Shown here: one piece after another, positions 6,802-58,695 of the stretch
Layout of the letters: every line of letters begins with the position of its first letter
Position numbering within the stretch: the stretch's first letter is position 1
Origin: a virus
Length of the DNA: 64,000 nt
Strand: one strand, 5' to 3'
Virus record (IMG/VR): IMGVR_UViG_3300036715_001140
Coordinates: 62,001-126,000 of that record
Notes under the pieces: model-generated
Databases searched by the model: none
Seen by the model: only the letters and a program-made list of their open reading frames with translations
What the model was told of the DNA's origin: nothing
Position numbers and translations under genes: made by a program

Positions 6802-7797
6802 CTATTTATATTTTCCTGATTTAACTGCAAGATAAGTATCTTCAACAAAGCCATTCCATATATCTTTATTTGGCTCTTCTGGAAGTCCACTATTATCTTT
6901 TAATTCTAGTACTTCTTGAATCAACTCTTCTAGTTTTGTTTCAAGTTCAGAATAATCTAATATACCTAATTTAATTTGAATTAGCTCTTGTGCTTCTTTT
7001 AATGGAAATGTAATAGTGCCTTTAGTAAATAGCTCTCGTACTTGGTAGGCTGCTCTAAAGGCATGACTGATTGCTTTCCAATCAATATTAGCGTTATCCT
7101 TTGCCTGTCTGGCTCTTACTCCATATTCTGAATCATATTTAACCAGTGGTGCTAGTATAAAATTAAGCGGCGTAGTAACAGTAAATGTTTTTTCACATAT
7201 TTTTACACTTGGAATTATTTGTAGATCAGGATGTGCAGTGCTAGAGTCTGGTGCTTCCAACCATTTAATATAATCTCCTTTAGGAAAGGTATCTAAATCA
7301 GCATCCCTTAATTTAGTACGTGGACCATATTTTGATATTTGCTGCTCCATCCACTGTATTACTTCTTGAACATTAGCTAGTCTACTTCCTTTTAGGCCAT
7401 ACTTTGCTGCTTGCCTACGAGCATACCCAATAAAGGAATGAAGATTTTTAGAATAAAAGGATGAACGATTGCTATAGATATAATACCAAAGTAGATGATG
7501 TAACATCCAAAATTCTTTTGGTGCATGTAGCATGTCTAAGGCTACCGTTTGACCTTCTAACGCAAGTTCAATAAAGTATTTTAAACTATAGATTTCAGTA
7601 TCAACATCTTCACTAGTATTTTTATTATTATTTTTACCAGTTGAATGTCGATAGATTATCTTCATCTTTTTTCCTGTTTTTTCCTCATGTAATATCTGGT
7701 CAATAGTGGGAAGTCCAATACCTTTAAGATCAAGATCACTTTTATCTGTATTAGTACCGTATAAATGTGATCCAAATATTGTTTTAAAGATTTCCAT
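6802..7797 (-). CDS. Nucleotidyltransferase (RlaP-like, COG3541 type)
   Basis: A polymerase-beta-superfamily nucleotidyltransferase. FGSHLYGTNTDKSDLDLKGI (residues 8-27) holds the GS motif and the DxD metal site (D21, D23); DVDTEIYSLKYFIELALEGQ is the following family motif, and the C-terminal half is helical. Relatives modify RNA or small molecules; the substrate here is unknown. It overlaps the metallophosphoesterase gene by 14 bases, so a paired transfer and removal function is possible but unproven. Confidence 0.8.
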   Translation of the reverse strand: MEIFKTIFGSHLYGTNTDKSDLDLKGIGLPTIDQILHEEKTGKKMKIIYRHSTGKNNNKNTSEDVDTEIYSLKYFIELALEGQTVALDMLHAPKEFWMLHHLLWYYIYSNRSSFYSKNLHSFIGYARRQAAKYGLKGSRLANVQEVIQWMEQQISKYGPRTKLRDADLDTFPKGDYIKWLEAPDSSTAHPDLQIIPSVKICEKTFTVTTPLNFILAPLVKYDSEYGVRARQAKDNANIDWKAISHAFRAAYQVRELFTKGTITFPLKEAQELIQIKLGILDYSELETKLEELIQEVLELKDNSGLPEEPNKDIWNGFVEDTYLAVKSGKYK

Positions 7798-8371: not shown

Positions 8372-11300
8372 TCAGGCACATTCAGAATATCCACATACGT
8401 GGCATATATTACATCCACCTTCATGCTCTACAATTCCACCGCACTCAGGACAGGCACCACGTTCAATAGTAGCTTTGTGAACTTTGTCAATATGTCCTAC
8501 CTCAAGTAGATGCAGTTGAATAGCCTTAGCAACTGCATCGGAACAGGATAGAATACGATTATCGCCAAATCCACTAGGGATGTGACAAGATATACCAAGT
8601 AATTGTTTAACTACTTGTTTGGCTTGCACACCTGTTCGCCAGTTAAGACTAATCATGCGTCCCAAGGCTTCAGCTTGAGAAGCTGCACATCCTCCAGCCT
8701 TACCCATAGTAGTAAACAGTTCAAAAAGCCCATCTTTATCTTCATTTATTGTAACATAAAGTGGACCGCAGCCTGTTTGCATTTGGTAAGTAGCACCTTT
8801 TAGAGCTTTAGGCCGTTCTTTTACTCCGCTATCTACTTTTTCTTCTGGTGTATTTTCTACTTTAGTTATAGTAGATAATACTTGTTCATCTCTTGATCCA
8901 TCACGATAAATCGTAACTCCTTTACAGCCTGTTTTATACGCCAGCATGTATACTTCTTCTACATCTTTAATAGTGGCACTATTACAGAAGTTTACTGTTT
9001 TAGAAACAGCATTATCAGTGTACATCTGAAAAGCTGCTTGCATACGCACATGATACTCAGGGCTAATATCATGAGATGTTACAAATACTTTACGAACATC
9101 TTCTGGAATTTCAAGAATGTTCTGAATAGTACCATGTTCTGCAATTTTTTCCATTAGCTGTGGTGAATAGAATCCACGTGACTTAGCTATATATTCAAAC
9201 ATAGGATTTACTTCAATTAGACGGGTTCCATCCATTACTGTTTTTACATAAGATACTGCAAATAATGGCTCAATACCTGATGATGCATTTGCTATCATGG
9301 ATATTGTTCCAGTGGGAGCAATAGTTGTAACAGTAGCATTTCTCATGTTCTTGTCAAAGATAGAACCTTTAATGTTAGGGAATGATCCACGTATTTTTGC
9401 TAGTTCTAATGATTTTAAAATAGCGTGATCTTGAATAAACCGCATCACATCTTTTGCGAGATTTATAGCTTCTTCAGAGTTGTATGGGATACCTAACAAG
9501 ATAAGCATGTCTGCCCATCCCATTACACCTAAGCCAATTTTTCTATTTGCTTTAGTCATTTCATCAATTTGCTTTAAAGGATACTTATTTACTTCAATAA
9601 CGTTATCTAAAAATTCTACAGATAAATTTACTATTTCTTTTAATCCTTCATAATCAATAGTAGAATTTACTACAAATTTGGATAGATTAATAGAACCTAA
9701 GTTACAACTTTCATAAGGTAGCAACGGCTGCTCACCGCACTGTCCAGTCATAATGCCATTAAAGATACCTGTATGCTTTTTAGGCTCAGTAAAGCAATAA
9801 ACTGTATTTTCTTTTTTATTTCTTTTTATAATGCTTGTAATAGTTATAAACCTAGAGGCATCCCTATTAGGCTCTTTATCTTCAATTTTGACCCGATTAA
9901 GCTTGAGTCCCAAATCTAACAATTTAAAAGTATTAAACTTGTTAATAGCAAGTCTATAACAATCTTGTACGTTATATTTTTTAGGCTCTCCATTAGTATC
10001 TGGTAGATAAGAAATACCTGCTTCTTTTCCAAGACTTAGCGTTGAGAAACAACCTAAAGTAGAAAGCATCAACTTTACGTCAGACAAAAATGCCCTATCT
10101 ACTGACCAAATAGTAAGCCCATTCTCATTCTGATAGGAGCCATCACTATCAACTAACCCAGCAAACCAACTAAGACGAGTATCAACTGTATATTTACTTG
10201 ATGGAACCCAACATTTATCTCGTACAGAGAATGCCGTTTCTACCATAAGTCTATTCTGGCGGTCATTACTACAGTCGATACATTTTTTTATTAGAAGCTT
10301 GTCTTTAAGTTTAATCTTGTCTTCATATAACCAAATATCATTATGACCTTTACTTCCATCTCCACTATAAAAACCTTGAGTATAGGCTTTCTTAGATTTT
10401 ATTTGCTTAATACCCTTAATGATGGGAAAACTCCACTTTTGAAGTTTTGCACCTTCTTCTAATTCTTGAGCTTCACGTTTAGACCCATCAGCTAATACAA
10501 ATTTATGCTTTGGGGTACAAGATAAACAGGAGCCATCTGAAAATTGAATTTTAAGAATATTTTGGTTATATCCTGTAATCTCAGGTATAGTCGTAGACCA
10601 TTCTTCTCCATTCCAGATCTTTGTTTTCTTGCCTACTCTGGAAGCAATTTTCTTATAGCCCTTCTTGGTAAGAATAAGAGTGTCACCTGTAACACATGGA
10701 TTTGTAGACTCAATCTCACCAATATGTGGAGTAGGATTATCTTTATTTATTCTATCTAAAAATACTATTCCAGGTTCACCGTTTCTCCATGCTTGTTTCA
10801 CAATAAGGTCAAATACTTCTTTTGCATTGAGTACTCCTACTTCTTTTTTATCTCTCGGATTATATAGTTTATACGTTTTATTAGTCTCTACAGCTTCCAT
10901 AAATTTTTCTGTTATCCCAATAGAGATATTAAAGTTATTTAAAACCTTCATATCATCTTTACATTTAATGAAACTCATAATATCGGGATGATCTACTCTA
11001 AGTATACCCATATTAGCACCACGTCTTGTGCCACCCTGTTTGATACATTCAGTAGCCTTATCAAAAACACTCATAAAAGATATAGGCCCACTCGACACAC
11101 CACTTGTAGTTTTTACTAAGTCATTAGCTGGGCGTAGACGAGAAAATGAAAATCCTGTCCCTCCTCCACTCTTATGGATCATAGCCGTATGTTTAATAGT
11201 TTCAAATATCTCTTCAATAGAATCACCTACAGGTAGAACAAAGCAAGCGCTTAACTGGCCCAATTCACGCCCTGCATTCATTAATGTCGGGCTATTAGGC

Positions 11301-11500
11301 AAAAATTTTAAAGAAGTCATCATATTATAAAATGCATTTGTTTTCGCCGTAATTTCTTTTTTAGGACTAACACTAGCAATTGTTGAAGCTACTCTACTAA
11401 ACATATCTTCAGGTTTTTCAATTACTTTACCTGTCGCATCTTTAATAAGATAGCGTTTCTCAAGTACAGTCCTAGCATTTTGTGTAAGTTCCAGTTTCAT
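8372..11500 (-). CDS. nrdJ: Class II (B12-dependent) ribonucleotide reductase with intein
   Basis: Reduces ribonucleotides to deoxyribonucleotides using adenosylcobalamin. The 1042-residue precursor consists of an N-terminal extein (1-268), an intein (269-587) and a C-terminal extein; the spliced enzyme would be 723 residues. Visible family features: [12 protein letters not shown] and SACFVLPV (Cys 86 of the redox pair), [15 protein letters not shown] joined to [19 protein letters not shown] (finger loop with the radical Cys between Asn and Glu), [28 protein letters not shown], and a C-terminal zinc-binding tail with CPECGG and [23 protein letters not shown] precedes the ATG. A terminator follows. 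It supplies dNTPs without a separate radical-generating subunit. Confidence 0.95.
9740..10696 (-). other. Intein with LAGLIDADG endonuclease domain in NrdJ (319 aa)
   Basis: The insert begins with Cys at residue 269 ([17 protein letters not shown], splicing block A) and has block B with TPKHKF. Two LAGLIDADG-type motifs follow, [10 protein letters not shown] and [14 protein letters not shown], so it should be a homing endonuclease. The C-terminal block reads [20 protein letters not shown] and is followed by Cys, so the terminal residue is Gln rather than Asn and the penultimate residue is Gly rather than His. Gln-ending inteins are known in ribonucleotide reductases. The insertion point is exactly before the catalytic Cys of the NxCxE finger loop. 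Confidence 0.92.
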
Positions 11501-29173: not shown

Positions 29174-29249
29174 TGGAGTTGGCGATAGGACTCGAATCTG
29201 CAGTCTACTGATTACAAGTCAACTGCTCTACTAATTAAGCTATACTAGC
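29174..29249 (-). tRNA. tRNA-Thr(UGU)-like, probably decayed
   Basis: The anticodon arm (GTTGA, CTTGTAA, TCAGT) and D arm (GCTT...GAGC) are intact and a CCA end is encoded, but three of seven acceptor pairs and two of five T-stem pairs are A-C mismatches. Each mismatch would be a proper G-C pair before one G-to-A change on this strand. Either a tRNA pseudogene or a tRNA needing editing. Confidence 0.55.
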
Positions 29250-30015: not shown

Positions 30016-30455
30016 TGGTGGAGGTGGAGGGCTCCGACTCCCTCGTCTTGCATATGCATCCATAATCACATCTACGCTAATAGCTTCATTTAATTTAAAC
30101 ACTGGAGTAATAGAAGCCTAAACTATCCAGAGTCGATTAAGTTTTATGCTGAAAACTTACAAACAGGTTCCTCTTGTTAGCTACACATAACTTACCGAAA
30201 TGTGATCTTCTGTTACTCAGCGAAGGTTTACTAAGAGTATCTTCCTTTACTGTACCTACGATTCTACTGTAGGAATTTGTTACTTCTAAGCTGCTGCCAA
30301 TTGGTCGAAACCATAGTTGTCAGCAGTGAAGAAGCCTTTTACTTTTTCAATTACAGTGTTTGCATTTATTGTTTAGTGGATTATTAATGAGGCCAACCAC
30401 AATCCTCATAGCGCAGTAATTACTTTACATACACAATCGAATCCAATTCACCCCC
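30016..30455 (-). ncRNA. ssrA: tmRNA (ssrA), phage-encoded
   Basis: Rescues stalled ribosomes by trans-translation. The 5' end GGGGGTG pairs with CACCTCC before A-CCA at the 3' end. ATTGGATTCGATTG matches the conserved D-arm-like sequence, and TGAGGATTGTGGTTGGCCTC matches pseudoknot 1 of bacterial tmRNAs. The tag frame follows at 30286-30363. The T arm has stem GAGGG/CCCTC with an unusual eight-base loop. Length 440 is longer than E. coli (363). Its 3' end lies seven bases before the ribosome binding site of the response-regulator gene. Confidence 0.9.
30286..30363 (-). CDS. tmRNA tag reading frame (25 aa)
   Basis: The resume codon is GCA in AATGCAAACACTG, as in most tmRNAs (Ala-Asn start). 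The tag begins ANTVIEKVKGFFTADN and ends FDQLAAA before TAG. The Leu-Ala-Ala-rich end is the degradation signal read by ClpXP-type proteases. It is long; tags are usually 8-20 residues. Confidence 0.85.
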   Translation of the reverse strand, partial: ANTVIEKVKGFFTADNYGFDQLAAA

Positions 30456-57043: not shown

Positions 57044-57120
57044 TGGTGGGCCTTCAGTGATTTGAACACTGTACCGTCCGGTTATGAGCCGGATGCTCTA
57101 GCCAATTGAGCTAAAGGCCC
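57044..57120 (-). tRNA. tRNA-Met(CAU)
   Basis: Acceptor GGGCCTT/AAGGCCC, D arm GCTC/GAGC, anticodon loop CTCATAA, T arm CAGTG/CACTG with TTCAAAT, encoded ACCA end. An elongator Met or, with lysidine at C34, a minor Ile tRNA; initiator features are absent. Confidence 0.93.
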
Positions 57121-57167: not shown

Positions 57168-57506
57168 TGGTGCGGGTGGCGAGACTCGAACTCGCACAGC
57201 CTTTCAGCCGAGGGATTTTAAGCATGTATGTCTGAAAGTTTCCAATCAGCATGGACTATATCTTTACCGCTTAAATTTGATTTAAGTACGGTAGTGGGCG
57301 CTCTAGCCTGTTATTAAGAACACTATAGTTCTCAGGTAGTCTCTGCACCTTCTGTAGTTGTAACTACAGCTTGGCTCAGGGTTAGCATATCTACATAATA
57401 TAGACTTAGCCTTCTCTGAGTTCACCCACAGTTTACTCAACTATTACTAATTGAGGGGGACTAACTTTCTGGTCTTCCCTTGTGTCTGCCATTCCACCAC
57501 ACCCGC
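57168..57506 (-). tRNA. tRNA-Leu(UAA) interrupted by a group I intron
   Basis: 5' exon 57476-57506 starts GCGGGTGTGGTGGAATGGCA and ends after AGGGA; 3' exon 57168-57222 starts CTTAAAATCCCT and ends CACCCGC-ACCA. Joined, they give acceptor GCGGGTG/CACCCGC, anticodon stem AGGGA/TCCCT, loop CTTAAAA, a variable arm and T arm TGCGAG...CTCGC. The intron separates positions 31 and 32. Confidence 0.88.
57223..57475 (-). ncRNA. Group I self-splicing intron (253 nt)
   Basis: Conserved core elements in order on the minus strand: ACCCTGAGCCAAGC (Q), TGCAGAGACTAC (R, about 57337-57348) and AAGATATAGTCC (S, 57253-57264); GACTA of R and TAGTC of S form P7. The last intron base is G. It contains no reading frame for a homing enzyme. 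The last base of the 5' exon would be A rather than the usual U, paired with U in a GGGA/TCCC P1. Confidence 0.85.
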
Positions 57507-57774: not shown

Positions 57775-58695
57775 TTAGTCTTCGTCATCATCATCATCAT
57801 CTTCTTCTTCGTCATCATCTTCTTCTTCGTCATCATCATCATCTTCGTCATCATCATCATCATCTTCATTCTCGTCATCGTCATCATCATCGTCTTCATC
57901 ATCGTCTTCATCATCATCATCTTCTTCTTCTTCGTCATCATCATCTTCTACTACTTTTTTACCTTTACCTTTTTTAGCCGGCTTTTCATCTTCTTCTTCT
58001 TCATCCTCGTCATCATCTTCGTCTTCTTCTTCCTCTTCTTCCTCTTCTTTGTGCTTAGAGGATTTCTTTTCTGGACGAGCCTTCTTAGCCTTCTTTTCTA
58101 CTTTTTCATCTACTTCAGCAGAAATATCAATATTAATACCTTCTGGTGATTCAGTGTTGACCAGAATAATCTCACCTTTCTTATTAACTACTTTGATAAA
58201 ACCAGTAGTCTTATCTACAGTTGACTCTCCAGAAACTTCATAGACACAGTCAAAGCCTTTGAACAAGACTTCACCGTGACCACCTTCCTCACCCTCAATA
58301 ACCAAGATATTCTTCATAGCGATATCACGCTTGATAGCTTTTGAACTCCGTGGCTTCTTATGGAGAAGAGTGAGTTTTTCAGAATCCATAGAAACAATAG
58401 TACCAGAAAGTGAACAGATAGTAAATCCTGATACGGTAACATCAACTTCAGATCCTGAACCATTTTTAATCTTTTTAGCTTTTGATCCTTTGTTTTCTTT
58501 TGTTGCTGCTGACACTGAAGGTTTACGACCACGAGTTTTCTCTTCTTTTACTGGCTTGGACTTAGAAGCCTTTGCTGCCCTCTCTGCTGCTTTTTTAGCT
58601 TCTCTTTCTTTAGCAGCTTTCTTTGCTGCCCTCTCTGCTGCTTTAGCTTCCTTCTTCAGACGAGCTTCTTTTTCAGCTTTAGTTTCTCTTGCCAT
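57775..58695 (-). CDS. Protein with basic head, beta core and polyacidic tail (306 aa)
   Basis: Not recognised. Residues 1-85 are Lys/Ala-rich (repeats of K-A-A-E-R-A-A-K-x), residues 86-195 are a compact beta-rich core (DVTVSGFTICSLSGTIVSM, AMKNILVIEGEEGGHGEVLF), and residues 215-306 are nearly all Asp and Glu with one Lys island. This resembles histone chaperones or DNA-mimic tails more than an enzyme. GAGGATGTAAAA precedes the ATG and a motif at 58808 lies upstream. The plus-strand reading frame through this tail is a shadow. Confidence 0.75.
   Translation of the reverse strand: MARETKAEKEARLKKEAKAAERAAKKAAKEREAKKAAERAAKASKSKPVKEEKTRGRKPSVSAATKENKGSKAKKIKNGSGSEVDVTVSGFTICSLSGTIVSMDSEKLTLLHKKPRSSKAIKRDIAMKNILVIEGEEGGHGEVLFKGFDCVYEVSGESTVDKTTGFIKVVNKKGEIILVNTESPEGINIDISAEVDEKVEKKAKKARPEKKSSKHKEEEEEEEEDEDDDEDEEEEDEKPAKKGKGKKVVEDDDDEEEEDDDDEDDDEDDDDDDDENEDDDDDDEDDDDDEEEDDDEEEDDDDDDED

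Follow-up and report, generated by a model that had tools for sequence, protein, structure and literature searches.

A group IA intron family at position 31/32 of phage tRNA-Leu(UAA) genes, with a non-canonical 5' splice site

The window discussed here, the whole 64,000-nucleotide stretch of DNA that was analysed, belongs to a 146.8-kb virus record and includes a tRNA-Leu(UAA) gene that is split between positions 31 and 32, with A as the base before the insert. The question is whether the insert is a working group I intron, and if so of what kind, how its 5' splice site is recognised and how it came to be there. Our answer, from sequence comparison, is that it is probably a splicing-competent group IA intron at 31/32 of a phage tRNA-Leu(UAA), having a non-canonical 5' splice site and spreading between phages.

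Run with introns allowed, ARAGORN reports c57168-57506 as tRNA-Leu(taa) on the minus strand with a 253-nt intron at 31-32 (aggga-Intron-cttaa), which is exactly the group I intron, length and split proposed in an earlier sequence-only reading of this DNA; without the intron option the gene is missed. The joined exons form an 86-nt class II tRNA with cloverleaf, long variable arm, UAA anticodon and encoded CCA, so that the two exons do reconstitute a complete tRNA-Leu as had been claimed, and folded on their own they give a complete tRNA at -33.4 kcal/mol. The intron-free junction AAGGGA^CTTAAAATCCCT (AAGGGACTTAAAATCCCT) is uninterrupted in 14 other viral loci among those fetched, and this fixes the exon boundary independently. 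The layout of the gene and its neighbour is as follows.

57476..57506, minus strand: 5' exon of tRNA-Leu(UAA), positions 1-31, ending ...AAGGGA (ARAGORN -i; intron-free alleles with the same junction)
57223..57475, minus strand: group IA intron, 253 nt, no ORF (RF00028; boundaries from ARAGORN)
57168..57222, minus strand: 3' exon CUUAAAAUCCCU...CACCA, positions 32-76, with anticodon UAA and CCA encoded (ARAGORN)
57044..57120, minus strand, the same strand as tRNA-Leu: tRNA-Met(CAU), following tRNA-Leu after 47 nt in the direction of transcription (ARAGORN)

All three frames of the intron are interrupted by stops, and the four neighbouring ORFs, searched with a homing endonuclease near the tRNAs in mind, have no significant Pfam match. 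Just upstream of the tRNA-Leu gene, at window 57775-58695 (minus strand), is the gene for a 306-aa protein, the C-terminal part of which is nearly all Asp/Glu runs.

The earlier reading had proposed folding the insert with a covariance model and had named a poor score as grounds for rejection. The Rfam group I intron model RF00028 matches the same strand with 75.5-76.9 bits (E 9e-18 for the higher value), where the gathering score is 50, and this match, together with helix covariation, gives a P3-P9 core with the P7 guanosine site. The minimum-energy fold of the precursor gives P1, P2 and the tRNA arms unprompted. The elements, all on the minus strand, are listed in the order of transcription.

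57476..57479, minus strand: P1 exon strand GGGA (28-31), A31 being the last exon base
57461..57462, minus strand: guide extension AG, in which G can pair with C32 (P10) and A with U33 (G invariant in 11/11)
57457..57460, minus strand: P1 guide strand UCCC (internal guide sequence), its U pairing with A31 (minimum-energy fold; exon-guide covariation in L166 and L095)
57436..57455, minus strand: P2, 8 bp with a GUAA tetraloop (fold and alignment)
57423..57429, minus strand: P3 5' strand GUGGGUG (Rfam and alignment)
57416..57420, minus strand: P4 5' strand CUCAG (Rfam and alignment)
57375..57379, minus strand: P4 3' strand CUGAG (Rfam and alignment)
57352..57369, minus strand: P6a hairpin CUGUAGU-UACA-ACUACAG (compensatory change in 6/7 pairs, 10 sequences)
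57337..57341, minus strand: P7 5' strand GACUA (Rfam and alignment)
57307..57336, minus strand: P7.1 (CCUG/CAGG) and P7.2 (GAAC/GUUC) (compensatory changes in relatives)
57294..57300, minus strand: P3 3' strand CGCCCAC (Rfam and alignment)
57254..57258, minus strand: P7 3' strand UAGUC (Rfam and alignment)
57223..57223, minus strand: terminal G of the intron (omega-G), invariant in 11/11

In the alignment P7.1 and P7.2 sit between P7 and P3' and show paired variation across relatives. These two helices are the hallmark of group IA, and on this evidence the window intron is by its predicted fold group IA (IA2-like) and not IC3, the subclass with which comparison had been suggested. IA2 accounts for over half of viral group I introns (PMC11835236).

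Relatives were difficult to reach through neighbouring proteins, as the topoisomerase II subunit led to one distant contig (34% identity) and a 280-aa protein to none, and for this reason we searched IMG/VR with DNA patterns for the intron and the tRNA. These scans, checked with ARAGORN, gave ten further phage tRNA-Leu(UAA) introns at exactly 31/32 (L016, L022, L047, L055, L085, L090, L095, L096, L104 and L166), of 189-244 nt and with 67-79% intron identity to that of the window, and the family thus has at least 11 members, the count being a lower bound. Ten of the 11 are group IA, and in the alignment of those ten 49 of 74 consensus pairs show changes on both sides with pairing kept. The eleventh, L047, which was first found by a pattern requiring guide UCCC and was not recovered otherwise, is without P7.1/P7.2 but agrees almost fully with L016 in the P1-P2 region, where GAGUCCCUCCUUGAUUA and UAAUCAUGUAAAAAA are common to both, and it thus looks like a chimera in which the P1-P2 guide module is coupled to a different core. 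The L047 intron is at 854-1128 of its locus, and the same 410-kb record has introns in tRNA-Arg(UCU) and tRNA-Asn(GUU) (L068 and L072). In another locus, L046 (6278-6329), a small hairpin of 21 nt (AACCGCCTGATAGCGGATAAT) is inserted exactly at 31/32 of a tRNA-Leu(UAA) and is possibly an intron remnant.

The carriers look unrelated to each other: of the 10 carrier records, two have a match to the window topoisomerase II subunit (at 33% and 26% identity) and one has a match to the window ribonucleotide reductase. Similar introns in dissimilar genomes suggest horizontal spread, and mobility between phages is the most likely explanation of the distribution. For cellular homologues, a pattern running from P7 to the 3' exon, and covering only similar spacing and stem, gave 11 matches in 84,980 prokaryote species; by Rfam none has a group I intron, and three of the 11 carry an uninterrupted tRNA-Leu(UAA).

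A survey of group I introns, thousands in number, gives U as the final base of the 5' exon in virtually every case, with C as an exception (PMC4227781). The earlier reading had drawn attention to the A before the intron and to its terminal G, and both are present in all 11 members: the last exon base is A31, paired with guide U in place of the canonical U·G, and the last intron base is G. The guide base next to that U is G, again in 11/11; it faces intron position +1, which is A in six members, G in four and U in one (L104), and it is able to pair with C32. The first 3'-exon base is C32 in 11/11, the guide-blind patterns with which all members except L047 were found or refound requiring Y or C at that position. 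Beyond the guide G there is A in 8/11, able to pair with U33, so that this second P10 pair fails in 3/11. In the window every base of the guide AGUCCC can form a Watson-Crick pair with the ligated exons, GGGA^CU.

P1 lies as expected between the 5' exon and an internal guide near the 5' end of the intron, but in the window by itself it is four contiguous pairs (GGGA/UCCC), often expected by chance in a single sequence, and its support comes from the family. The guide tracks the exon, being UCCG where the exon is ACGGA (L166), UCCGC where it is GCGGA (L095) and UCCC with AGGGA elsewhere, and this supports the P1 pairing and fixes its register with A31-U at the splice site. Other registers of the guide, moved by two bases within the C run so as to give an A·C pair, were considered; they fit the window and L022 and fail for L016, L047 and L095. 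With A31 in 11/11 and the guide co-varying with the exon, the A before the intron is, as far as the comparison goes, a conserved trait of the family and not a sign of decay.

From these pairings we infer that P1 would form in the precursor between the guide 5'-AGUCCC-3' and the GGGA at the end of the 5' exon, with a Watson-Crick A31-U in the place that U·G takes in nearly all group I introns. Cleavage after A31 by a bound guanosine would follow, the guide G and A would then pair with C32 and U33 (P10), and the last intron G would occupy the guanosine site while A31 and C32 are ligated. The exon bases of P1 are also those of the anticodon stem, so that the two helices compete for them; once ligation has taken place, the 5' anticodon strand would exchange the guide for UCCCU in the 3' exon. 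The product would be an intact tRNA-Leu(UAA) reading UUA, which is the commonest leucine codon of the phage, and the intron family would move between phages, given that its carriers look unrelated.

How the 5' splice site is recognised can be read in two ways that are both compatible with the sequences: either the A-U pair is itself used, with G reserved for P10, or the guide G is recognised in P1 and the cut made one base upstream of its pair, A31-U being incidental. The latter is a sub-question of the explanation that we prefer, as intron and junction are the same and only recognition differs, the guide G standing opposite +1. We rate it as a serious possibility that falls somewhat short of an even chance. 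The G is invariant and opposite +1 in 11/11, and in L104 there is a real U·G at that position; BcISt1 provides an experimental precedent, as its splice site follows a G and its U·G lies one base further downstream (PMC4227781), and in L055 the guide G is directly followed by an internal loop, like that of group B IStrons. Against this, the +1 base is unable to form U·G in 10/11, and P10 pairing with the invariant C32 explains the invariant G equally well. If instead true splicing were at 32/33, the guide G would stand opposite the end of the 5' exon, which is its usual place in group I introns, but the intron would then end in C, the 5' exon would end randomly in A, G or U, and the product would have a purine at 32 in 10/11, whereas the intron-free alleles of the fetched viral loci have C32. 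A parallel scan for this one-base-shifted site gave no tRNA intron with omega-G at 32/33, compared with 9 introns for 31/32, and no canonical 32/33 ancestor; we regard splicing there as very improbable.

Given that U is expected at -1 (PMC4227781), the A might also be a lesion in a decaying, splicing-impaired intron. However all 11 members have it, in phages that seem unrelated, and these introns show compensatory changes throughout as well as a guide that co-varies with the exon; a second tRNA-Leu(UAA) was looked for in the record and not found, so we think decay unlikely. The earlier suggestion that splicing is unusual or impaired thus holds for unusual, while impairment is disfavoured by the retention of A and the covariation of the guide. 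Least credible of all is that the phages acquired the cyanobacterial or plastid tRNA-Leu(UAA) intron. Both are group I introns in the anticodon loop region of the same isoacceptor, but the cyanobacterial and plastid intron is IC3 and is inserted at 34/35 after U34. The window intron is at 31/32 after A31 and has both P7.1 and P7.2, and being IA rather than IC3 it is not a relative moved by three positions.

The preferred reading, a splicing-competent group IA intron, also agrees with the phage setting. In 18 long ORFs of the window UUA makes up 40.5% of Leu codons (37 per 1000 codons), and neither the window nor the remainder of the 146.8-kb record, which is possibly incomplete, has a second tRNA-Leu(UAA) by ARAGORN. 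The gene thus fits the codon need of the phage, which is reason to expect selection for splicing. Other genes in the window are for ribonucleotide reductase, a Dda-like helicase, both topoisomerase II subunits and a topoisomerase IB with relatives in jumbo phages such as PaBG, Lu11 and NCTB (25-26% identity). The ribonucleotide reductase large subunit gene (8372-11500, minus strand) has an insert that matches LAGLIDADG and, weakly, an intein splicing domain, and is likely an intein. At 30016-30455 (minus strand) there is a 440-nt phage tmRNA that ARAGORN missed (RF00023, 97.6 bits; 25-residue tag ANTVIEKVKGFFTADNYGFDQLAAA*), and at 29177-29249 (minus strand), adjoining a gene for a DHH-family protein, a weak Rfam tRNA match of 36.9 bits that ARAGORN does not call.

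What is new is a group IA family at 31/32 whose splice site is non-canonical; the class of intron to which it belongs is known. To our knowledge there is no precedent for a group I intron at tRNA position 31/32, and in the open-access literature we found no paper after 2014 on phage tRNA introns, although a report in a subscription journal could be missed. It is about an even call whether this is a mobile phage family that adapted to tRNA-Leu(UAA) 31/32 by abandoning U·G, with L047 implying that module exchange can re-target introns. A natural family of at least 11 members without U·G is a ready source of ribozymes with which the purpose of that pair can be studied. Split genes of this kind can escape tRNA finders in their default settings, as this one escaped ARAGORN without its intron option, and phage tRNA inventories are therefore probably incomplete.

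With regard to known systems, phage group IA2 introns (T4 td and nrdB, Twort, Bastillevirinae, cyanophage psbA) have the same P3-P9 core with P7.1/P7.2. Unlike the window intron, they are in protein genes and their 5' exon ends in U. Among named phages, Synechococcus phage S-SRM01 gives the best DNA match, with its psbA-associated intron (68.7% over 44% of the query).

A 2014 review had all phage group I introns then known in protein-coding genes, despite the many phage tRNA genes (PMC3984707). The earlier comment that such an intron is rare in a phage is true of the literature to that date, but tRNA introns are present in several phage records, and introns of more than a single subclass have repeatedly entered phage tRNA genes, at several positions. 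Outside the 31/32 family these are L021, a Lys intron in L022, L057, L058, L059, L068, L072, L088, L131 and L143; in all of them the last exon base is U, and most are at 34/35, in contrast to A and 31/32 in the family. L021 (8571-9356) is a 699-nt tRNA-Leu(UAA) intron at 34/35 that holds an HNH-like open frame and lies where phage tRNA genes are densely clustered. L022 has its second tRNA intron at 7320-7596 (minus strand) of the same 239-kb phage record, called Leu by ARAGORN with exons that fit tRNA-Lys(UUU) split after U34, and the locus also has a permuted tmRNA match at 1997-2228. The L057 intron is in a Microcoleus phage tRNA-Arg(CCU), annotated in the deposited record as a 286-bp tRNA-Arg, and those of L058 and L059 are unannotated in the huge-phage records LR756501/LR756508. 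Further group I intron matches in viral contigs are five within about 2 kb in L011 (9185-11250), 12 and 9 in the L055 and L111 records, and one inside a tmRNA match in L013 (5907-6534, minus strand).

The nearest precedent for the arrangement of the splice site is, by analogy, that of the group B IStrons (BcISt1), which are, in the literature we found, the proven exception to U·G. The two share a 5' exon not ending in U, a guide G displaced one base from the splice site and an adjoining internal loop. They differ in that group B IStrons carry transposase genes, occupy varied sites and splice after G, shown by experiment to be one base upstream of a U·G that they keep at +1 (PMC4227781), while the window intron has 253 nt without an open frame.
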